From Candidatus Pacearchaeota archaeon (GTDB lineage Archaea; Nanobdellota; Nanobdellia; Pacearchaeales; GW2011-AR1), in contig JAAOYK010000028.1 of assembly GCA_018221305.1 (NCBI GenBank), positions 1 to 40,325 on the forward strand: a stretch of DNA of 40,325 nt, written 5' to 3'. Position numbers and translations under genes: made by a program. The notes under the pieces were generated by a model. It was given only the letters and a program-made list of their open reading frames with translations, was not told the DNA's origin and searched no databases. Below, piece after piece: positions 28,455 through 39,669 of this stretch; the first letter of the stretch is position 1; each line of letters begins with the position of its first letter.

Positions 28455-30125
28455 TTAACGTTTCTTCTTTTTATTTCTTATAATCAATATAACAATAACA
28501 ATTAATGAAATAGCAACAAGAATTACCGGCAAGAGATAATCACGTGCCCTTTTCGAACAACTTTTAATATCCGGACAATCAGTATCACAAACATCAGTTT
28601 GACAAAAATGGTCCCCTATCAAAGAACAATCCTTACTACAACTCAAATAATTTTCATCATCATCACAAACATTATCCCCACATTTATTAGAAAATGCCGT
28701 AACTGAGACAGTATCAACAATCTCATTTTCTTTCCGAATTTCAATAACATCCCCGTTACGTGCATAAGGAACCATTACCAAAAATTCAACACTAGCTAAA
28801 CTTACAGGAACAGAGTCAGGCCCAGTCACAGGATATACTTTATTTGGAACTTCCAGATTCGAACTATAAATAATATTCCCAGAATCATCTTTTATCGAAT
28901 AATTGTACTTACTAGATTTATATGAAAATCCAGATTTAACTGGCATCAAGAAAACATCACCTGCATCTATTTCCCCATTATGATATCTCATTGAGACCAC
29001 ATAACTTTTCTTATCAGGAAGTAAAGATTCCGCCTCATTTTCTTTTTGCGTATAATCATTTACAAGACGAATTATTTTGTCACGTGATACTGCATTATAT
29101 TCAGGATACAAATCAAACATTACTGATTGATCTTCAACAGACCGATACAAACTATCATACGTACATCCAGGATAACATCCAGTAGTTATCTGCTGCCATT
29201 TACTACAGGTTTCTGTATCACAGTTTGCCTTATCTATCTTACCAACATCATAATCTCCAAAATAATTAGAATACACATATTCATCAGCCAAATCTGCAAA
29301 ACTATGCCCTAATTCATGCATCAAAATTAATTGAGAATTTTCATTTTTAGCACAAATCTTTGCATAACTTGACGCAGACCCGCAAAGTTGTGAATTATTA
29401 AGTAATACAAAGATACTATCATGATGACAATTCATTGCTTCTTTTTTGACTTTTTGAGTATTACAACAAACAAGGGTTGAAACATCATTACATCCAACCT
29501 CACACTCAAGATCAACATTAGTATTAACAACAGAAAACGAAAACTTATCCCTATTAGATTTAAATGGATTCTTAGACAATAATGCCCCCCTACCTGCCAC
29601 AATCTTTTTTGCATCATTAACAAAAGCATCAAAATCATTATATCCATAAGGCAATATTACAAAATTAATATTATTATCATTAGAATTACCAACTATTAAA
29701 TCACATTTTGGCTCCCCAATTCTAAAACTTGCCAAGGTTTCTTTATCATTTTTAATATTATAGACCCCATCAACATGCCCCTTAGAATCATAATGTGCAG
29801 CGTAAACATAATCTTTAAGTTCCAAATCATAATGCTCCCCATCATCATACAAAAAAAAGCGCTCAATAGTTTCAGGCCCTTGAATCATCAAGCTTAAATC
29901 CTGCTCTGGCCTTTGTTTCTCCCAATACGCTCTTACTAAAAATTGTGTACCCTGCAAAGAATCTCCAGGAGTTACTTCAACTTTTATTTTTTCAACTGGA
30001 ACAGGATATCCAGGAATAACACCAACACTCATACTAACTTTAACAATTAATACAACACCACCAATTAAAAAAGCCATAGCTAAAACTATTACAACAGCAG
30101 CTTTTAAGCTCAAATTCACACCCAT
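28455..30125 (-). CDS. Membrane-anchored M64-type metallopeptidase
   Basis: A 556-residue zinc peptidase facing outward. An N-terminal membrane segment (about 9-33) is followed by a beta domain (45-135), then the peptidase region with H270-E-L-G-H274-SFADLADEY, the HExxH site plus downstream acidic pair of M64 (IgA-peptidase-like) enzymes, and LPYGYNDFDAFVNDA upstream as in that family. A beta domain and a Cys-rich EGF-like stretch (CGDNVCDDDENYLSCSKDC) precede a C-terminal helix with basic end. The two helices would hold both ends in the membrane. Cysteines are plentiful, implying disulfides. It has a separate promoter region with a leader of about 7 nt. Its substrate is unknown; surface-protein processing is inference. 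Confidence 0.88.
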   Translation of the reverse strand: MGVNLSLKAAVVIVLAMAFLIGGVVLIVKVSMSVGVIPGYPVPVEKIKVEVTPGDSLQGTQFLVRAYWEKQRPEQDLSLMIQGPETIERFFLYDDGEHYDLELKDYVYAAHYDSKGHVDGVYNIKNDKETLASFRIGEPKCDLIVGNSNDNNINFVILPYGYNDFDAFVNDAKKIVAGRGALLSKNPFKSNRDKFSFSVVNTNVDLECEVGCNDVSTLVCCNTQKVKKEAMNCHHDSIFVLLNNSQLCGSASSYAKICAKNENSQLILMHELGHSFADLADEYVYSNYFGDYDVGKIDKANCDTETCSKWQQITTGCYPGCTYDSLYRSVEDQSVMFDLYPEYNAVSRDKIIRLVNDYTQKENEAESLLPDKKSYVVSMRYHNGEIDAGDVFLMPVKSGFSYKSSKYNYSIKDDSGNIIYSSNLEVPNKVYPVTGPDSVPVSLASVEFLVMVPYARNGDVIEIRKENEIVDTVSVTAFSNKCGDNVCDDDENYLSCSKDCSLIGDHFCQTDVCDTDCPDIKSCSKRARDYLLPVILVAISLIVIVILIIRNKKKKR

Positions 30126-30208: not shown

Positions 30209-33200
30209 CTATTCAAACCCTAAAAATTCAAGCCTCATAATCTCATTAAGTTTACCATCACCCCTACACCGAACAAAATTAGATATAACCTCAGCAGAAT
30301 TTCCATCATAATAACGTTCATCAACACTTAATTGTACAAATTCCGAAACCCTTTTCCCATTTAAAGTAAACTCAAGATTTTGTCCATCATTACTTACAGT
30401 ATACACATTATTACCTCTACAATTTTTAAAATAATCTTTCTTATTACTGACAACAACCCTAAACTTCGGATTTAAAGAAAATCCACCTTTAAGTTTAAGG
30501 CGTAAAGCACCAGATTTTTTCCAAAAATTCCCACTCGAAAGATCAATATCAGTTAATTTAATCCAATTATCTTCTTCTGCCCATTCATGCGGCCCTTTAA
30601 TTTCAAAAGCTTCAAATAGATTTTTATCTTCTGGGACCACTCTTCCAGAATCAATATCGTTTAAAGAATCATAATAATCTTTTAAAGAATATGGCTTCAA
30701 CTTTCTTTCATCAAGAATAGAATTTTTAAGAACAATTTCCATGACATCACCCATCTTTCCCATACGATTCAACAAAGCACTTTGAACACTTTCCGGAAGC
30801 TCAATCGAAAGAGTATTAGAAAGAATAAGATTAACAGTCTCACTTGTTGTTGTTGTCCCGACCCCACTAATTTCTCTATATTCTTTGTCAGTTAAAATTT
30901 CTGCATTCCTTAAGCTAATTGTAAACATGCGAGTGTTTACCACAGGATCATTAATTGGCTCTTTACCAGCAAGAGAAGCCTTAGTATCTCTATTCCACAA
31001 ACCTTCAAGATAATTATAATTAATATATTTTACAGCATTGCTATTAGTCCACCCATCTCCTTTGTACCTGTTATAAGCTAATTTATTTTTTTGTGTTTTT
31101 AGCTCTTTAATATCCTTTTCAAGGAAATAAATTGCACTCTGCTTATGACTATAAGGTCTAGAAGCATACTCACCTTCCCCGCTATTAATCTCCAGAATCT
31201 TACTTTCCTTAAGCTTTATCTCTGCATCAATTCTTTTTATTTCTGCCTCAAACTCTTCTTTAGCAAGCTTTTCTTCACTAAACTCAGAAGCTTCAGAACT
31301 TGCGGTTATACCCCTAGCCAGTACATCATCAGTTAAAAGTGCGTGTGTTAATGCAGCGTAGATTGCAAAAGATCCTCCAGTCGGCCTTGTAACTAAAACA
31401 CGGGCAACTTTAATTTCATTTTCACTATCTTCTGTCATTTTCGCAAGTTCTTGTAAACCTTGCAAATAAGTTTTTCCATCCAAAGGCCCAGGCCCTTCAG
31501 GAATCCATTTAGTCATAAACATATAAGTCTTAGCTTCAACCTCAATAGGCTTATCTGTTTTCAAATGCTCTTCTTTAAGCTCTGAAAAATAATCTTTAGA
31601 CAATGATGAAACAACCTCTCCTTCATTACTAACCCATTCATTATTTTCTTGCATAACCCATACAACATTATCATTTCCAAGAACAATAACACCAGCAACA
31701 GGGCCAGGTTCAACAACTGGATCAGGAGGCGTAATTATTGGATCATCATTCCCAAGATCATCTTCAGCTTTCAAAGTTTCAATTTCTTCTACAAGCACTC
31801 CTTCTCTTTCTTTTAATATGTCAAGTTCTTCTTGTGTAATTCCAACAGGATTACCATTAGCATCAGTAAACTCTGCAATTTCATTCTGCACAGTAGTAAG
31901 CGAAACTTTTGCTTGAACAATCTTATTTTCAACAAGATTATTTACAGGAATTTTATCTGTAACCACCCTTGGTGGAAGATATTTTTGTGCAAGCGCTTCA
32001 TGCAAGTTTCCTAAAATAAAAAGTCCACGTGCACGCAAATTATTATTATATGCTGCATTGACTAATTTTGTTAAATCCTTAATCATGTCAGCTATCCCCA
32101 AAGTTCCAAGACCTGCTTTTGAGGATCCTCTAACCGCATTAACAAACTTTTCACCTTTGCTTGCCAAATTTTGGCTTTCATTAGGTGTTAGATAATCATC
32201 AATACCAATCATTTTTAGATTAATTTCATCTATCGCAGCATTTGCAATATCTTTATTATGTATAACATCCCGTACACTATCTTCATCTAACCAGCACCGA
32301 ATAGTCTTGTCTCCACAATATCCCACATCTTTCCATTTATCATAAGTAGAGTTTGTTGTATCATACTGTCCGTCAAGACGAACCTGCTTTCCAGGATTTT
32401 GTGTAGCACATACCCGAATTATTCCAGAATTATAAAGTTCAGGATTTATTGTATCTTCAAGTCCTGCCTGTAGGTTCGGATTTGCCAAGCTCCACATTGA
32501 AGGAGTACCTGCAACACATTCTTCCTCTCTAATTATTTGCTCATTATTTAATTGATCTTCCGCATACTTATCCGAAATTGCATTAACAGCAAAACTAGTA
32601 GAAACTTTACCAAACCCGCATTTGTCCTGTCCATTAACACTCAAACACAATTGTTTATATCCAGAAACAGTCGTAAAATCGTCTGCTTTATCAATAGTTT
32701 CACCTTTCTTTGCATAACCCCTATCAACCACATAGCGCCCTGTAGAATGAACATAATTAGACTGCGGAAGATCTTTTAAGTACACAATATAATATGCTCC
32801 TTGATCATTGCCTGCATAAATATGATAATATACCTTATAATGACTTGTTGCAGGAATCGTGGCAGTAGTTAATGAATTTTCTGAAAACCAGGCATGATAT
32901 TGTACAGGACTATCTGGTTCAATCAAATCATCAAAAAAGTTCTTTGAGTTTGGATAATTAACAGACATAAACGATTTACAAACATCATCACCAATTTCAT
33001 CAGTAGTCCTATATCTAAAAGCATCTCTAGAATTTACTGCATAAGTATCTCTAAAATAAGATATAGAGTCTTGCGTATTGTCCCATGCAGACTGTACTGT
33101 TAAATATTCTCCACCACCCCTAACCCCTTGTTTAGAAAAACTTTCAAGCAATCTAGGTATGGCAGCATTTGCAAAAGGTGCTGCTTGTTTCCAGAAAAAT

Positions 33201-36200
33201 TGGCACAAATATACAGACTTTATTTCATCACAAATACCAATAGTTTTACCAGTTTCTAAACTTTCATTTAAACATCCTCGTGTAGATTCTAATATACTTA
33301 AATATCCCTCAATTCCAGCCTTTACGCCACTCAAACAAATAGGAATAGCTATACCTTCTTTTGCGTTTGGCAAACAAAGCATCAAACTTCCAATAATCCC
33401 ACTCTGGATAACATTATCAACACGGTACGCTCCACCAAGATCACACCTAGATGTTGGACAAATAACAGGATCACATACATTAAACAAGATATTACAATCC
33501 TTTGCACTCATAAAATCAGTACATCTTCCTTCTTCCCCACCAAAATCAATACCAGCATTAAAAGTTTCATCCCCTATACGAACCTTTTTCTGGCCATGCT
33601 GCCTGCCTGCTTCTTGAAGTGCTCGTTGCGCACGAACCACTAATTGACGCGATGCACCAGGAGCAAGTCCAGGAAAGTCTAGTGATGCTGTATTACCATT
33701 ATAATATCTACAAATGTCATCCCCACCCCGTTTAAACTCTGCAATACTATTTCCACCAACATTACAAATATAATAGTTCACAGGACGCCCAGAATCATCA
33801 TAAGGCCTTCCAAAGCCAGTTAAAACATAGGTTAACTGCACATACCATCCTTCTCGTGTATCAAAAGGTACAAAAGATGGCAAACCTTTGTATGGCTCAC
33901 GTTCAAAATATTTAACCATTAATTGATCTGTTCGTGCAAACGGATTTTGATATGCTTTAGCATCAGAATTTTTAATACGATTAATCTTTGCCAAGTTCAT
34001 ATATTCAACAACAGACCCAGATGCTTGTGAAAGTTTACCTTCACTATTAGTATCATCTTCATTATTTGTCGACCCAATCACCCCCCCAGCACCTTTAAAT
34101 TCAGTGCCAGTAAGCTCTCTTCCATCAACAAAATGTGCCTTTCCTGTCAAGTCAACATCATATACACCACTAAGTTTATCATAAGTTACAGGAACCAATA
34201 TTTGTGAGGTAGTAATAGAAGATTGTGCTCTAAAAGTTTCTGTACCAAACTGTTGAGTATGCGGTATAGATACACGCACAACATGTTTCCCAACCCCAAT
34301 AGCTTTATAGGCCTCATTTTTTCCAAGATCAGTATTAGTAACAGTTTTCACGTCACCATATGCAAAATTATCCCCAGCAGGATTAATCGTTCGTATTCCT
34401 AAATTATACTTACTTGCTTGTTTATCTAAAGCTAAACGTGTTTGTTCAAAATCATAATAATCTTTTGCAGAACTCATTGATGTGCTCATATCTTGACGCA
34501 CCATTCCTTTCAAGACATCACTTCCGCCTTGCGCCTCAATACTATCAAGAACCATTTTGTCTCGCAAAATGTCACGTTTTTGCTCAAAACTACCCATATT
34601 ACAAACTTCAGAATTACCAAACTTCAAGTTAGTTTCTCCATCACTTAAATTAACACTATCACTCCAGCCGATACATTTATCATAATAACTAGAATTAAAT
34701 TGTCCTTCAACTTCCAGTGCATCTGTCTGGCCCTGAAAGTCTAAAATATCTGAAGATTCTACACCAACCTTAGTTTGTATTCGTTTTAATTCTTTATTTA
34801 CTTCAGTTATCTGTTCAGAATATATTTTTACATCTTTTTCAATTTCTGAATTTTTTTCAAGCAAACAAGTTTGCACGGTTGCAAATTTACCAGAACTAAC
34901 CAATCCTTCACATTTATCATTCCATCCACCAGAACGCGTCATTACCTCGTTTCGTGCCATAGATTCTCCAGCCATACCACTTGCTAGATTTTTTAACATA
35001 AATATTGCAGATGTTGCAAAACATGCCCCTTTCATTGCCTTAACAACAGTATCCAGTTTATCATTAACAGAGCTCCATTTTTCAATTTGTTCGTCTAAAT
35101 CCTTAATCATTTCTTCTGTCCGGTCATCACTAAGTTTTATGCCACGTTTTTCAATACCAATCTTAAACTTAAAAGAAGAATTAGTTCTAGGCCCACGAAT
35201 TTTCGGGATTAAAGTTAGCTTAGCATTTTTCTCAACATTTAAATTTATAACCCGAATAAGAGTGCCATCAAAATCTTTCTCAGCCCTTAGATCAACCCGC
35301 TGAGTACTTGTCTTGTCGCTAACACCCCCGCCACTTTTTGTATATTTAATTTTTACATAATCAGTATTAATCTCTGTAACCTGAAAAGTTTTTTTAATCT
35401 TTATTGAATCTGGCACTTCTTTACCTTTAGAATCCGTTTTAGTAATAATCATTTCTTCATCATCAATGGTATAAATCTCACCAAGACCTAAATCTTCTTC
35501 TACCTGATCAATACGCAATCTTACACTTAAATCACTTTTATCAGGAACCCTAAAATCTAATAATTCTATAAAATATTCTTTATTGTTAAGATAAATCAAA
35601 GCTCGCGAATTTGTTGAATCATATTCTGTTAACAATTCTTTTTCACGAATAGCTTTTGTACTAACATCTGTTTCAGGATAATCATTTATTAATTTTGTAT
35701 AAAAATTATTAGCATCTTCAAACATGTCAAACCCTTTAGCAAGACCTGCTGCAACATACAAGCCGTACGCAGCATAAGGATCATCACTTACAGGATTTTC
35801 TTCCTTAGGATAAAAATCATAAAGGTCTGTATAATAACTAGTTGCATTTTTATAATAATCATACGCAATTATTTCATCTCCAGTGAGATTATCTTCCCAA
35901 ACCTTATTTTTTACAACAATTGATTCCTGAAGTCTTATCCCGTTAAACTCTTCAGATTCTATATTATTTTTATCAACAATTAAAATCTTAACTTCTACTA
36001 CACCTTTTTCTGAAGTTCGGTACTTTGATTGAATCTTTTTTTCAATTAACTCAGCCATAGAAGAAATATTATCTTTTTCACCATTACGAGTAATAATTTC
36101 TTTTACTGCTCCATAAACTTTTTTTTCAGCAAAACGCACTTCATCAAATGACACACTTTCCCTTACTAATACAACAAAATCAGAATTTTCCTTATCCCTA

Positions 36201-37396
36201 CCAATATAACCGACCCAGACATCTTTAGAATCATTACCTCTTAATTTTTCACCTACAGCATACTCATGAGAGACCACTTTGCCGTCAATTGTGCTTGACA
36301 AATTAACTTTGCCCGGGTTTAGTGTTAAAATGAAATTTCCATTTTTCACTTGACAAGACATTCTTACTTTCCCTCCAGACCCATAAGCTTCTAAATCCTT
36401 GATACTACATTTATTATCTAAAATACGATCCCGATCAGCCACCCAAATCTCCTGACCATTAATACGTAACAGTGCAGCCTCAACCGGTGCAGTAATTGAT
36501 TCAAGCTTTACATTCAATCCAGCAGCACAATAAAACCCACTAACATACAAATCATTTGATGTTTCTCCCCTTCTTAAAGTAACAGTAGAGACCCGTTCAT
36601 GCTCATCTCGATAAAGTCCAATAGTTGCACTATTTTCATCAATCATGTCAGCACGAACATACCCTTTTCCATTCCAAAACCCATAACTCCTATATTCTCG
36701 TGCCCAGTCTTCATCAGTCATCTCTGGCAAATAAAAACTAGTCCTACCAATACCAAAAGCACCTTGTGCATCATAATCAATCGTTGCAGTTATCTCTCCT
36801 TCAACAAATTCTGGCATATCCTTTTCAGCAACTTGTTTTGATAAAACTATGACAACATACCCTAAATTATCATTAACAGGTGTTGAAACAAGATTTCTAT
36901 AGCTTCTAAGTGCAGCCTTTGCAGGAAAATATGATATACTAGAAACCCCATCAGGAAGATTCTTAGTATTAAACCTTAACGCGCGTATACGCGAAACATC
37001 TATCAAAGGATTAGCTTGTATTGACATAACTTTACAAAATACTGGAACATTTTGCTCTTCTAACAAATCACTCCTAACAACAGAAGGACTGCACCCACCG
37101 GGAGCTATCTGCATTATGAAATCTTGACGATCATAGCAATCATCCCGATTAAATTCACTCCAATAAATTCCAGGAGAAGTAAATCCAGCACCACCAAAAA
37201 AGTTTGGATCATTAAATTGAGGATTCATACTAGCTCCAATAATTTGAGCCCCGCCAATAGAACTCGGAGACGGATTTGAAAAAGGTACAGAAGGCCCAGA
37301 CAGTGCTAAAGCTATTCCCATCAGACTCAAAACACTAACTAATAACATTGCTACTAGTGTTATTGCATTCATTCTTTTCTTTTTTTGTATTTTCAT
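30209..37396 (-). CDS. Giant exported protein, 2395 residues
   Basis: Unrecognised at family level. A long basic N-terminus and one hydrophobic segment (residues about 10-32) serve as signal or anchor, and no C-terminal helix is present. A proline/glycine-rich start follows, then beta-rich domains to about 500, a TPR-like helical region near 525-580 (YTDLYDFYP, AAGLAKGFDMFEDANNFYTKLINDYPE), coiled-coil stretches near 760-780 and 845-875, a Cys-rich block near 1230-1400, another coil near 1855-1880, a Pro-rich linker near 1884-1902 and a coil near 2040-2070. It follows the 630-residue pilin-like gene by 3 nt and must be co-transcribed. A structural or scaffold role outside the membrane is likely but inferred. 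Confidence 0.9.
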   Translation of the reverse strand: MKIQKKKRMNAITLVAMLLVSVLSLMGIALALSGPSVPFSNPSPSSIGGAQIIGASMNPQFNDPNFFGGAGFTSPGIYWSEFNRDDCYDRQDFIMQIAPGGCSPSVVRSDLLEEQNVPVFCKVMSIQANPLIDVSRIRALRFNTKNLPDGVSSISYFPAKAALRSYRNLVSTPVNDNLGYVVIVLSKQVAEKDMPEFVEGEITATIDYDAQGAFGIGRTSFYLPEMTDEDWAREYRSYGFWNGKGYVRADMIDENSATIGLYRDEHERVSTVTLRRGETSNDLYVSGFYCAAGLNVKLESITAPVEAALLRINGQEIWVADRDRILDNKCSIKDLEAYGSGGKVRMSCQVKNGNFILTLNPGKVNLSSTIDGKVVSHEYAVGEKLRGNDSKDVWVGYIGRDKENSDFVVLVRESVSFDEVRFAEKKVYGAVKEIITRNGEKDNISSMAELIEKKIQSKYRTSEKGVVEVKILIVDKNNIESEEFNGIRLQESIVVKNKVWEDNLTGDEIIAYDYYKNATSYYTDLYDFYPKEENPVSDDPYAAYGLYVAAGLAKGFDMFEDANNFYTKLINDYPETDVSTKAIREKELLTEYDSTNSRALIYLNNKEYFIELLDFRVPDKSDLSVRLRIDQVEEDLGLGEIYTIDDEEMIITKTDSKGKEVPDSIKIKKTFQVTEINTDYVKIKYTKSGGGVSDKTSTQRVDLRAEKDFDGTLIRVINLNVEKNAKLTLIPKIRGPRTNSSFKFKIGIEKRGIKLSDDRTEEMIKDLDEQIEKWSSVNDKLDTVVKAMKGACFATSAIFMLKNLASGMAGESMARNEVMTRSGGWNDKCEGLVSSGKFATVQTCLLEKNSEIEKDVKIYSEQITEVNKELKRIQTKVGVESSDILDFQGQTDALEVEGQFNSSYYDKCIGWSDSVNLSDGETNLKFGNSEVCNMGSFEQKRDILRDKMVLDSIEAQGGSDVLKGMVRQDMSTSMSSAKDYYDFEQTRLALDKQASKYNLGIRTINPAGDNFAYGDVKTVTNTDLGKNEAYKAIGVGKHVVRVSIPHTQQFGTETFRAQSSITTSQILVPVTYDKLSGVYDVDLTGKAHFVDGRELTGTEFKGAGGVIGSTNNEDDTNSEGKLSQASGSVVEYMNLAKINRIKNSDAKAYQNPFARTDQLMVKYFEREPYKGLPSFVPFDTREGWYVQLTYVLTGFGRPYDDSGRPVNYYICNVGGNSIAEFKRGGDDICRYYNGNTASLDFPGLAPGASRQLVVRAQRALQEAGRQHGQKKVRIGDETFNAGIDFGGEEGRCTDFMSAKDCNILFNVCDPVICPTSRCDLGGAYRVDNVIQSGIIGSLMLCLPNAKEGIAIPICLSGVKAGIEGYLSILESTRGCLNESLETGKTIGICDEIKSVYLCQFFWKQAAPFANAAIPRLLESFSKQGVRGGGEYLTVQSAWDNTQDSISYFRDTYAVNSRDAFRYRTTDEIGDDVCKSFMSVNYPNSKNFFDDLIEPDSPVQYHAWFSENSLTTATIPATSHYKVYYHIYAGNDQGAYYIVYLKDLPQSNYVHSTGRYVVDRGYAKKGETIDKADDFTTVSGYKQLCLSVNGQDKCGFGKVSTSFAVNAISDKYAEDQLNNEQIIREEECVAGTPSMWSLANPNLQAGLEDTINPELYNSGIIRVCATQNPGKQVRLDGQYDTTNSTYDKWKDVGYCGDKTIRCWLDEDSVRDVIHNKDIANAAIDEINLKMIGIDDYLTPNESQNLASKGEKFVNAVRGSSKAGLGTLGIADMIKDLTKLVNAAYNNNLRARGLFILGNLHEALAQKYLPPRVVTDKIPVNNLVENKIVQAKVSLTTVQNEIAEFTDANGNPVGITQEELDILKEREGVLVEEIETLKAEDDLGNDDPIITPPDPVVEPGPVAGVIVLGNDNVVWVMQENNEWVSNEGEVVSSLSKDYFSELKEEHLKTDKPIEVEAKTYMFMTKWIPEGPGPLDGKTYLQGLQELAKMTEDSENEIKVARVLVTRPTGGSFAIYAALTHALLTDDVLARGITASSEASEFSEEKLAKEEFEAEIKRIDAEIKLKESKILEINSGEGEYASRPYSHKQSAIYFLEKDIKELKTQKNKLAYNRYKGDGWTNSNAVKYINYNYLEGLWNRDTKASLAGKEPINDPVVNTRMFTISLRNAEILTDKEYREISGVGTTTTSETVNLILSNTLSIELPESVQSALLNRMGKMGDVMEIVLKNSILDERKLKPYSLKDYYDSLNDIDSGRVVPEDKNLFEAFEIKGPHEWAEEDNWIKLTDIDLSSGNFWKKSGALRLKLKGGFSLNPKFRVVVSNKKDYFKNCRGNNVYTVSNDGQNLEFTLNGKRVSEFVQLSVDERYYDGNSAEVISNFVRCRGDGKLNEIMRLEFLGFE

Positions 37397-37399
37397 TTT

Positions 37400-39292
37400 T
37401 TATTCAAAAAAGATATCAAGACTTGATATATCAACATTATTAAAATTTGCCTGCAAACTCTCAACACTTTGTGGAACACCAAAAGAGTCAGCATTAATAA
37501 TCATCTTTGTTGACTCAAGCAATTCGCTTTCGCCAATAAAATTATTCCATTTACCTCCACCAGAGATTGCAAGATTAACAGTTTGCGCAGGCATATCTAA
37601 ATCAAAACATTTTTCTTCTTCTGCACCAAAAAATCCTAAAACTCCACTTTTTGGAACTTTTACACATTTTCGCTGACTACTACCTGCAAGACGAATATTA
37701 GAATTTGTATAAATATACGCTTTAATCTCATACGTCCCAGGAGTCAGCATTACTTCACTTTGATTAGGATATGCAACAGTTGTAGTTATATCATCCTTAG
37801 TAAAAGTTAATATTGCATAATCTTTTTCAAGTTTACTATTCCCTTTTGTAACCTCTAGACTTAGGTTATACTTTTTGTCCATTACAATATAAACACTTTC
37901 AGGAGCAATAGTTGAGACCAAATACTTCTTTGTTTCATAACCTTCTTTTTCTGCAATAACATATCCATTAACACATTGAGGAAAGTCTGTTTCAAGTATT
38001 GATTCTCCAGCAACAATTTCAGTCTCACCAATTAAGCACGTTGTATCAAAACATTTAAACCTAATAGTCGCATCCAATGGCTCAAGATTTGTATTATAAG
38101 TTGAGACACTAATAGGCGTGTTTTTATGCTCACAAAGCTCAGGGACAACTTGCGGCATCCCCACACCTTGTAAAGCTTTTCGTGCATTCGTCTTATCAAT
38201 AACAACTACCACTGGGAACTGGAACATTTCTTCATCACTATATATCTGTATCATAACAGGATAATAAAGATCATAAACAAAATGATAAGGAGTATAACAA
38301 AATCCAAGCATACCAAGACCTTCTTGTAAGCCTACAGGATCTGCACGCAAAATCCCATCTTCTTGGTCCCAAACCTCAAAACGCATCGGCCATTGACGAG
38401 AATACATAAAGTTAATATTTGCATCAACATCTTCACCAATATCATGAATAAAATAATCATTAACCTTTTCTGCATCATAATAATTACCTTTAAGTTTTAT
38501 TGCAGGAACATTTGCTTCTAATGCTGATACAATATCCCCATGGACCTCATTAACACTCCATATTTTTGGGCTACATCCAATCTCACTTCCATCCACTGGA
38601 GCATACAATCTCAAAACATCTAGACCATACTCTTCCAAGAACATGCTTGATTTATGATTTGAATAAATTTGTCTAGCCAAATTATAAAAATTTCCAAGAT
38701 TTGAATTAGTTTCTATGGTATGCTTACCTTTTGTCCACACAACTTCACCAAAACTAATAATCAAATCCTGTTCAACTTCAACATCAATTGATCGTTTATT
38801 AACAGTGGTACTTACTTCAACCTCACCAAACCCAACTTGATACCCTTCCGCTAAAAAACTATCAAAATCACATTCACTAATTCTGTCACCTAAATAATCA
38901 TTTAGTTGTGCTTCAATCTTATTAAGGGCAGGGACTTGTTCGTGCACCACACCATTACCTGAAAGATAATACCAATATGGAACACCGATACCCAAAAAAT
39001 CAAGTTGTGAAGAAAAAGGCATATAAGTACTACCAGTTACAAATTCAGGATTGTCTAAATATCCCCCACGTTCGCTTAAGATCATAGCAGCTTGCTTTAT
39101 TTCTTGTTCAATACAACTTTGATAATAAGTATAAACCTGTTCAAGCTCTTTTGGCACAGAAATTTTTTCAGGATTATTTGTTATAACAAAAAATACAACA
39201 ATTGCTGCAACAATAACTATTCCAAGTATCACAAATATAGCTATCTGCCCGCGCTTATTCCCAAAAATTCGATCAATAAGATTATTTTTCAT
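37400..39292 (-). CDS. Pilin-like exported protein, 630 residues
   Basis: Begins with a class III (type IV pilin-like) signal: FGNKRG-QIAIFVILGIVIVAAIV, with predicted cleavage after Gly15 and helix 17-38. The outer part has an alpha/beta region to about 380 with a few conserved cysteines, a domain near 405-480 resembling PEGA/carboxypeptidase-regulatory folds (DATIRFKCFDTTC, FPQCVNGYVIAEKEGYETKK) and a last beta domain to 630. At this length it is not a simple pilin subunit. It overlaps the 45-residue ORF by 11 nt upstream and lies 3 nt before the giant gene, so all three form an operon. It would be held in the membrane by its helix unless processed and assembled. Confidence 0.85.
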   Translation of the reverse strand: MKNNLIDRIFGNKRGQIAIFVILGIVIVAAIVVFFVITNNPEKISVPKELEQVYTYYQSCIEQEIKQAAMILSERGGYLDNPEFVTGSTYMPFSSQLDFLGIGVPYWYYLSGNGVVHEQVPALNKIEAQLNDYLGDRISECDFDSFLAEGYQVGFGEVEVSTTVNKRSIDVEVEQDLIISFGEVVWTKGKHTIETNSNLGNFYNLARQIYSNHKSSMFLEEYGLDVLRLYAPVDGSEIGCSPKIWSVNEVHGDIVSALEANVPAIKLKGNYYDAEKVNDYFIHDIGEDVDANINFMYSRQWPMRFEVWDQEDGILRADPVGLQEGLGMLGFCYTPYHFVYDLYYPVMIQIYSDEEMFQFPVVVVIDKTNARKALQGVGMPQVVPELCEHKNTPISVSTYNTNLEPLDATIRFKCFDTTCLIGETEIVAGESILETDFPQCVNGYVIAEKEGYETKKYLVSTIAPESVYIVMDKKYNLSLEVTKGNSKLEKDYAILTFTKDDITTTVAYPNQSEVMLTPGTYEIKAYIYTNSNIRLAGSSQRKCVKVPKSGVLGFFGAEEEKCFDLDMPAQTVNLAISGGGKWNNFIGESELLESTKMIINADSFGVPQSVESLQANFNNVDISSLDIFFE

Positions 39293-39419
39293 TTTTCTTT
39301 TTTTCTTTAGCCTTTTCTTTAATTAAATTCATAATTTCTGTATTAATGTCTCTGTCAATTACTTCCTTAAACTTCTCCCATAAAGACTCATCTTCAATTA
39401 AAAGTAGATATTTTTTCAT
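39282..39419 (-). CDS. Small 45-residue leader gene of the giant operon
   Basis: ATG 39419 to TAA 39282-39284. The product MKKYLLLIEDESLWEKFKEV followed by a Lys/Glu-rich helix (IMNLIKEKAKEKKKNEK) is soluble and helical. It overlaps the next gene by 11 nt, typical of translational coupling. TATATAAA at 39459-39466 is 43 nt upstream and leaves a leader of about 18 nt. Several other ATGs lie nearby in other frames, so the start is moderately sure. Function unknown. Confidence 0.6.
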   Translation of the reverse strand: MKKYLLLIEDESLWEKFKEVIDRDINTEIMNLIKEKAKEKKKNEK

Positions 39420-39458
39420 ATTTTACACATCTTTTACAAAACATCACATAATCTAGAA

Positions 39459-39466
39459 TATATAAA
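39459..39466 (-). promoter_or_regulatory. TATA box of the giant-protein operon
   Basis: TTTATATA on the coding strand, with palindromic candidate operators directly upstream. Distance to the first ATG (about 43 nt) predicts a short leader, unlike the leaderless genes around. Confidence 0.55.
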
Positions 39467-39478
39467 TCTTTCTTAATA

Positions 39479-39511
39479 AGTTACTAAGTAACTTACTTAG
39501 TAACTAAGTAA
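39479..39511 (-). promoter_or_regulatory. Palindromic operator-like repeats upstream of the giant operon
   Basis: TTACTAAGTAA at 39481-39491 is followed by its reverse complement TTACTTAGTAA at 39494-39504 and a half site (TAAGTAA) to about 39512. They lie about 15-50 nt upstream of the TATA box. The layout suits a dimeric regulator. No regulator gene is adjacent. Confidence 0.6.
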
Positions 39512-39552
39512 AATAAGCTAGTAAAAATTAAAAGAACAAAAAATTAAAAAAA

Positions 39553-39623
39553 TGGTCCTGCCAAGAATTGAACTTGGGTTACTTCCACGTCAAGGAGGCG
39601 TCTTACCATTGGACTACAGGACC
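39553..39623 (-). tRNA. tRNA-Val (GAC)
   Basis: A 71-nt cloverleaf with acceptor GGTCCTG/CAGGACC and discriminator A. The anticodon loop TTGACGT reads GAC, and the T arm is CCAAG-TTCAATT-CTTGG. The anticodon stem CCTCC/GGAAG has one C28-A42 mismatch where archaeal tRNA-Val usually has GGAGG. No intron and no CCA. Confidence 0.94.
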
Positions 39624-39669
39624 AAGGTAACCATACAAAACAAAACAAAAATCTACATTATAAATTTAA

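Follow-up and report, generated by a model that had tools for sequence, protein, structure and literature searches.

A conserved pairing of a pilin-like protein with a giant secreted protein in Pacearchaeota: a candidate contact apparatus with exchangeable peptidoglycan hydrolase modules

Introduction

Very large proteins of up to 3,000 amino acids, common to the archaeal lineages Pacearchaeota and Woesearchaeota, have been described as family fam00969 (Castelle et al. 2021, PMC8204110). The family is extracellular and contains a murein-like lytic transglycosylase domain, and the authors of that study proposed that its members attach to bacterial walls. Here we analyze a stretch of 40,325 nucleotides (hereafter the window) from a Candidatus Pacearchaeota archaeon (assembly GCA_018221305.1, contig JAAOYK010000028.1, positions 1 to 40,325), in which a pilin-like protein of 630 residues (protein A) is encoded directly ahead of a giant secreted protein of 2395 residues (protein B). 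The B family is very probably fam00969, with which it has in common the two lineages (Woesearchaeota by our most likely assignment, see below), an extracellular location, giant size and, in some members, the transglycosylase domain. That domain is not found in the B protein of the window, and it is found in many relatives that are homologous to it in their core. The text of the 2021 study makes no mention of a pilin-like partner, of other hydrolase classes, or of a core that is separate from the transglycosylase.

Other described systems resemble this locus in part. Archaeal peptidoglycan hydrolases have been found to kill bacteria, with Nanoarchaeota as prominent carriers (2025, PMC12352652). 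Those enzymes are modular and have a wall-binding domain, whereas in B homologues the hydrolase makes up one module within a giant scaffold paired with a pilin-like protein. Murein transglycosylase genes of DPANN archaea have also been read as a sign of predation on bacteria by putative 'vampiristic' Woesearchaeota (Vigneron et al. 2022, PMC9723730); in the part of its text available, that paper mentions neither an apparatus nor a pilin partner nor a conserved scaffold. The tip and priming complex of the type IVa pilus, composed of PilY1 and minor pilins (PMC7541494), likewise combines a large secreted protein, a proposed tip adhesin, with pilin-type proteins. This likeness concerns how the systems may work: B has no sequence match to PilY1, it has one big pilin-like partner in place of several minor pilins, and its peptidoglycan hydrolases are exchangeable. 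In the literature searched we found no description of an obligate pilin-like partner, a hydrolase-free core, module swapping among five hydrolase families or a small upstream open reading frame (ORF). The giant family was thus very probably known before, as fam00969, and the first three of these features are absent from the literature searched.

Proteins A and B are encoded as a conserved, adjacent pair

An earlier note, made from the sequence of the window alone, had proposed that three packed genes, with a membrane metallopeptidase that follows them, might form a surface or cell-contact apparatus. These genes are indeed present on the minus strand as ORFs of 45 residues (39282-39419), 630 residues (A, 37400-39292) and 2395 residues (B, 30209-37396), with an overlap of exactly 11 nt between the first two and a gap of exactly 3 nt between A and B. 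The order along this strand is a palindrome (39481-39503), the 45-residue ORF, A, B and a membrane metallopeptidase of the M64 family. The note also took the source organism to be gene-poor, which is plausible; the genome bin of the window measures 1.26 Mb at 61% completeness.

The suggestion that the pair be sought in related genomes was followed with a comparison set of 89 related genomes and, by profile searches, a wider set of 234 genomes of the class. A is present in 75 and B in 69 of the 89 related genomes, and the corresponding numbers in the wider set are 151 and 98. At the first 43 loci A precedes B in every case, with gaps that mostly fall between -35 and +44 nt. Overall, A lies directly upstream of B at 97 distinct loci, plus three to four more recovered via tblastn, with the remainder cut at or near contig ends; the neighbours that appeared to be absent at a few loci were artefacts of ORF calling. 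The two proteins are therefore adjacent, in a conserved order, at all loci that could be checked. When named genomes were searched with the alignment of the B core, the carriers were Candidatus Pacearchaeota and other Nanoarchaeota; the same search with A alone found nothing. The further families of the class that carry the pair are most likely Woesearchaeota. Note that in many Pacearchaeota genes close to the pair encode ribosomal proteins, TFB and an Sm-like protein, names that were assigned from sequence and in part by inference.

Many B homologues contain peptidoglycan hydrolase domains

Among the 118 distinct B proteins, 33 (about a third) contain a hydrolase domain according to local profiles, and these domains belong to five families: SLT, M23, amidase_3, glucosaminidase and NlpC/P60. 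They are mostly located C-terminal to the B core, and some are N-terminal. Every SLT match in a B homologue contains a catalytic-type Glu motif (for L088 the Glu was taken from the sequence, since the automated pattern had caught a different Glu), and the motifs of the amidase and of several M23 domains are intact as well. When incidences of SLT, M23 and amidase_3 are counted per genome and family in the 89 genomes, 23 of 59 include a copy inside B, a gene that makes up about 1% of the genome. In a phylogeny built from 98 B cores, a hydrolase is gained or lost at least 18 times and the hydrolase type changes at least 23 times; these counts are approximate, as the FastTree topology has many weak forks. 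FtsW/RodA is found in none of the 89 genomes, with bacterial controls positive, and the producers are therefore unlikely to make murein. The repeated occurrence of peptidoglycan hydrolases in B homologues is thus indirect evidence, drawn from relatives, that the cells contacted are bacteria.

SLT domains also occur in genes around the pair and elsewhere in related genomes. In genome G073 the gene right after B (L074:12329-15388) codes for a protein with both an SLT domain and a D-alanyl-D-alanine carboxypeptidase domain (M15_4). In remote relatives, exported proteins encoded downstream of A combine SLT with a GDSL lipase/acylhydrolase (L245:3712-6645, L258:9570-11267 and L259:10655-13852), and the L259 protein has an M23-like stretch in addition. 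Finally, one of a series of pilin-like genes in G065 codes for a pilin-like N-terminus fused to an SLT domain (L208:5001-6080, minus strand).

Protein A has a type IV pilin-type signal and a large extracellular part

The type IV pilin-type signal that had been noticed on A is borne out by its homologues, 110 of 117 of which retain a prepilin-type cleavage site of the K/R..[GAS]^Q form. In the window this motif is K-R-G^Q at residues 13-16 (39245-39256, minus strand), and it precedes a hydrophobic helix of 25 residues (residues 14-38 in the AlphaFold model). A thus has the class III signal and hydrophobic N-terminal helix of the type IV pilin family. The machinery for such a protein is also present, as 85 of the 89 genomes have an A24 prepilin peptidase and all 89 have a T2SSE-type ATPase, as used in type IV pilus assembly; the window genome matches both. 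In genome G059 (L069:2463-8219) the pair lies next to genes for a T2SSE ATPase and for two T2SSF proteins, and several small genes of pilin-like type are found there too. This co-occurrence, together with the prepilin site and the conservation of the adjacent pair across two DPANN groups, gives good support to the proposal that A and B belong to a surface or cell-contact apparatus.

The structure prediction that had been called for gives a model of A, with a predicted local distance difference test (pLDDT) score of 85, that has another long helix after the N-terminal one, then a mixed domain, and a C-terminal half rich in beta strands. The large extracellular part would be held by a pilin-like anchor. 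Neither A nor B has a believable match in Pfam or NCBIfam, where only chance-level hits were obtained, in line with the earlier impression that no known family is visible. The two outcomes that had been named in advance as fatal to the proposal, namely that both proteins would fall into unrelated known families or that the pair would never be adjacent, did not occur.

Protein B combines a conserved cysteine-rich core with a hypervariable tail

B is strongly conserved over residues ~85-1770 and hypervariable over residues 1800-2395 (all B coordinates that follow are on the minus strand). As had been noted, its N-terminus looks exported: residues 1-31 (37304-37396) form a signal or anchor that is the only hydrophobic stretch of the protein, and complete homologues of 1606-3243 amino acids likewise have one N-terminal signal. 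A conserved N-terminal domain with the motif VxRSDLLEEQNVPVFC (residues 85-350; 36347-37144) is followed by the tetratricopeptide repeat (TPR)-like region that the note had reported (residues ~494-609; 35570-35917). Specifically, positions 415-530 of the profile of the N-terminal half match the TPRs of BamD/YfiO and CpoB in PDB with E values of 1e-6 to 5e-3, and TPR_6 is recognized in 8 of 44 homologues. This stretch was the only match in the sequence-profile search of PDB.

The conserved C-terminal core comprises residues 1151-1706 (32279-33946). Within it lies the most conserved part of the protein, the Cys-rich block seen in the original reading (residues 1292-1398; 33203-33523; CxDFMSxxDCxxxFNxCDPVxCPxSRCDxGG...). 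It contains ten Cys, most of them invariant among homologues, which fits a disulphide-rich extracellular protein, and its motif alone still picks up the B family in remote genomes. A fold search with the model of residues 620-1799 returned no PDB or viral-model match at E<=0.001. The tail (residues 1800-2395; 30209-31999) is lineage-specific; almost no relatives of it were found, and the homologous position in other species is where hydrolases occur. Giant proteins whose SLT, M23 or NlpC/P60 modules vary in position are also known from phage tails, as tape-measure and tail-tip proteins. B differs from these by its core without a viral fold match at E<=0.001, its Sec-type signal and its pilin-like partner, and an origin of the core from a phage tail is, given that fold search, unsupported. 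There is also no indication of the C-terminal beta-propeller of PilY1, which gave neither a Pfam match in B nor a fold match of the core in PDB at E<=0.001.

A and B as a probable contact apparatus used against bacterial cells

Our favoured explanation, which we regard as probably correct, is that A and B form a contact apparatus that is anchored in the manner of type IV pilins, has exchangeable wall-cutting modules and is used against bacterial cells. A would be inserted via its prepilin-type signal and act as an oversized minor pilin or as a membrane anchor. B would be exported as a large scaffold rich in disulphides, which A would retain at the cell surface or at the tip of a pilus, with the conserved core as the docking part. 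The ends of B would be the exchangeable modules. In about a third of the species these are peptidoglycan hydrolases, which would breach the wall of a bacterial partner or prey cell or take hold of it. For the clade of the window the module is something other than a known hydrolase and would act as an adhesin or through an unknown activity, with the gene for the M64 peptidase following. The data above establish conservation, gene order, domain content, catalytic motifs, module turnover and the lack of FtsW/RodA; the binding of A to B, the position of B at a pilus tip and the choice of bacteria as target are what we infer.

Several observations weigh against this explanation. The B protein of the window and its clade (18 rows of the B tree) have no recognized hydrolase, and the cell-wall function therefore rests on relatives. 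Some M23 copies in B homologues are degenerate and have lost their metal-binding motifs. The enrichment of hydrolases in B has a p value of 1e-30 that is nominal, because genomes that are related were counted as independent. The fifth residue of mature A is Phe in 98 of 110 homologues and not the Glu that is common at this position in major type IV pilins. The best PDB fold matches of A are generic, being stacked immunoglobulin (Ig)-like pilins and adhesins, and have low template modelling (TM) scores; therefore only a 'beta-sandwich stack' is assignable. Finally, the model of the B core (residues 620-1799) is of medium confidence (pLDDT 73).

Some of these same observations would suit a general adhesin complex that binds any host cell, archaeal or bacterial, and in which the hydrolases are optional, lineage-specific extras and not central. 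About two thirds of the B homologues, that of the window included, are without a recognized hydrolase, and A bears a likeness to pilins and adhesins made of stacked Ig-like domains. However, hydrolases are heavily concentrated in B, represent five catalytic families and have been repeatedly regained or lost, and where B is without one the next gene of the operon can contain one, as in L074. We therefore consider a general adhesin rather unlikely, though it is the strongest of the competitors. The near-universal presence of the pair in the order to which the window belongs, and its conserved site by ribosomal protein and TFB genes, suggest a core function and could be taken to mean that A and B are a housekeeping structure of the archaeal envelope, such as an S-layer scaffold or a machine for division or biogenesis, with the hydrolase folds acting on the glycan or proteins of the cell's own surface. 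This is improbable given that the tails are hypervariable, that their domains turn over quickly, that the mix of domains is specific to peptidoglycan chemistry and that FtsW/RodA is absent from the genomes compared.

A further explanation likens the pair to the pseudopilus tip of type II secretion, exporting enzymes of which B would be the largest carrier. The pseudopilus tip protein GspK is without Glu5, as is A, and the genomes encode both a secretion ATPase and a prepilin peptidase. Yet B has a Sec-type N-terminus of its own, no outer membrane is known that would have to be crossed, and the conserved core of B is scaffold-like and not an enzyme, all of which makes this a very remote prospect. 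Considerably more tentative than the contact apparatus itself is its widest form, in which the pair would make up the tip of a dedicated pilus with which these small archaea breach bacterial walls. It would then represent a machine of a new class for attack or attachment across domains, with a novel protein fold and with wall-cutting modules swapped between lineages, and Pacearchaeota and Woesearchaeota would widely be episymbionts or predators of bacteria; we regard this as possible and somewhat doubtful. Most Pacearchaeota and Woesearchaeota are without a known host, and the pair offers a concrete and testable link to bacterial partners that names a partner protein, a conserved core and a variable region for further work.

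The upstream ORF and palindrome, and other genes of the window genome

The 45-residue ORF is a small conserved companion of the pilin-like gene. It is real, because orthologues with 60-73% identity sit directly before A in several related genomes, and it is also weakly conserved beside pilin-like paralogues. Upstream of it lies a perfect inverted repeat, TTACTAAGTAA-G-TTACTTAGTAA (39481-39503, assigned to no strand), that was matched by none of 100 shuffles. Clusters of its half-site occur upstream of A at 8 of 8 loci with the 45-residue ORF and at 3 of 35 loci without it (Fisher p 1e-6). The palindromic operators of the earlier note thus stand as a palindrome, and the repeat is a candidate operator. 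The sequence pattern of the ORF suggests a regulator of CopG size with a ribbon-helix-helix fold, for which Pfam and PDB profile searches gave no match, and it is reasonable but unproven that ORF and palindrome are a regulator-operator pair. Immediately ahead of the operon, in the same orientation, lies a tRNA-Val gene (39552-39624), and a tRNA-like sequence is found there in some relatives too.

The membrane metallopeptidase of 556 residues that was noted after B (28455-30125, minus strand; 83 nt after B) is a member of the IgA peptidase M64 family, scoring 51.1 bits against a curated cut-off of 26 (Pfam E 1.5e-13). An M64 gene also directly adjoins B in G032 and is near B in G010. Two hydrolase genes of the window genome itself were not used as evidence for the species of the window: an SLT gene, as it is on a short and possibly viral contig, and an M23 gene, as its product has no signal peptide. 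A 6.3-kb contig binned with the window genome (L196; G000 contig 12) looks viral, with a packaging ATPase-like ORF and a small exported SLT lysozyme-like protein, and is possibly a mis-binned phage.

Pilin-like proteins related to A also occur apart from B. Residues 12-215 of A (38648-39259, minus strand) form, by sequence comparison, a module common to pilin-like proteins of 245-290 amino acids, and these relatives of its first ~215 residues adjoin other exported proteins, often near PCNA- or primase-like genes. No hydrolase was found when the partners of these paralogues were scanned. Arrays of such proteins near PCNA- or primase-like genes are seen in L061, L062, L063, L064 and L110-L115; each array protein adjoins a different exported protein of 420-1315 amino acids, several of which start with a CC-containing motif. 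Together, these arrays and their exported neighbours amount to another pilin-partner system within those genomes.

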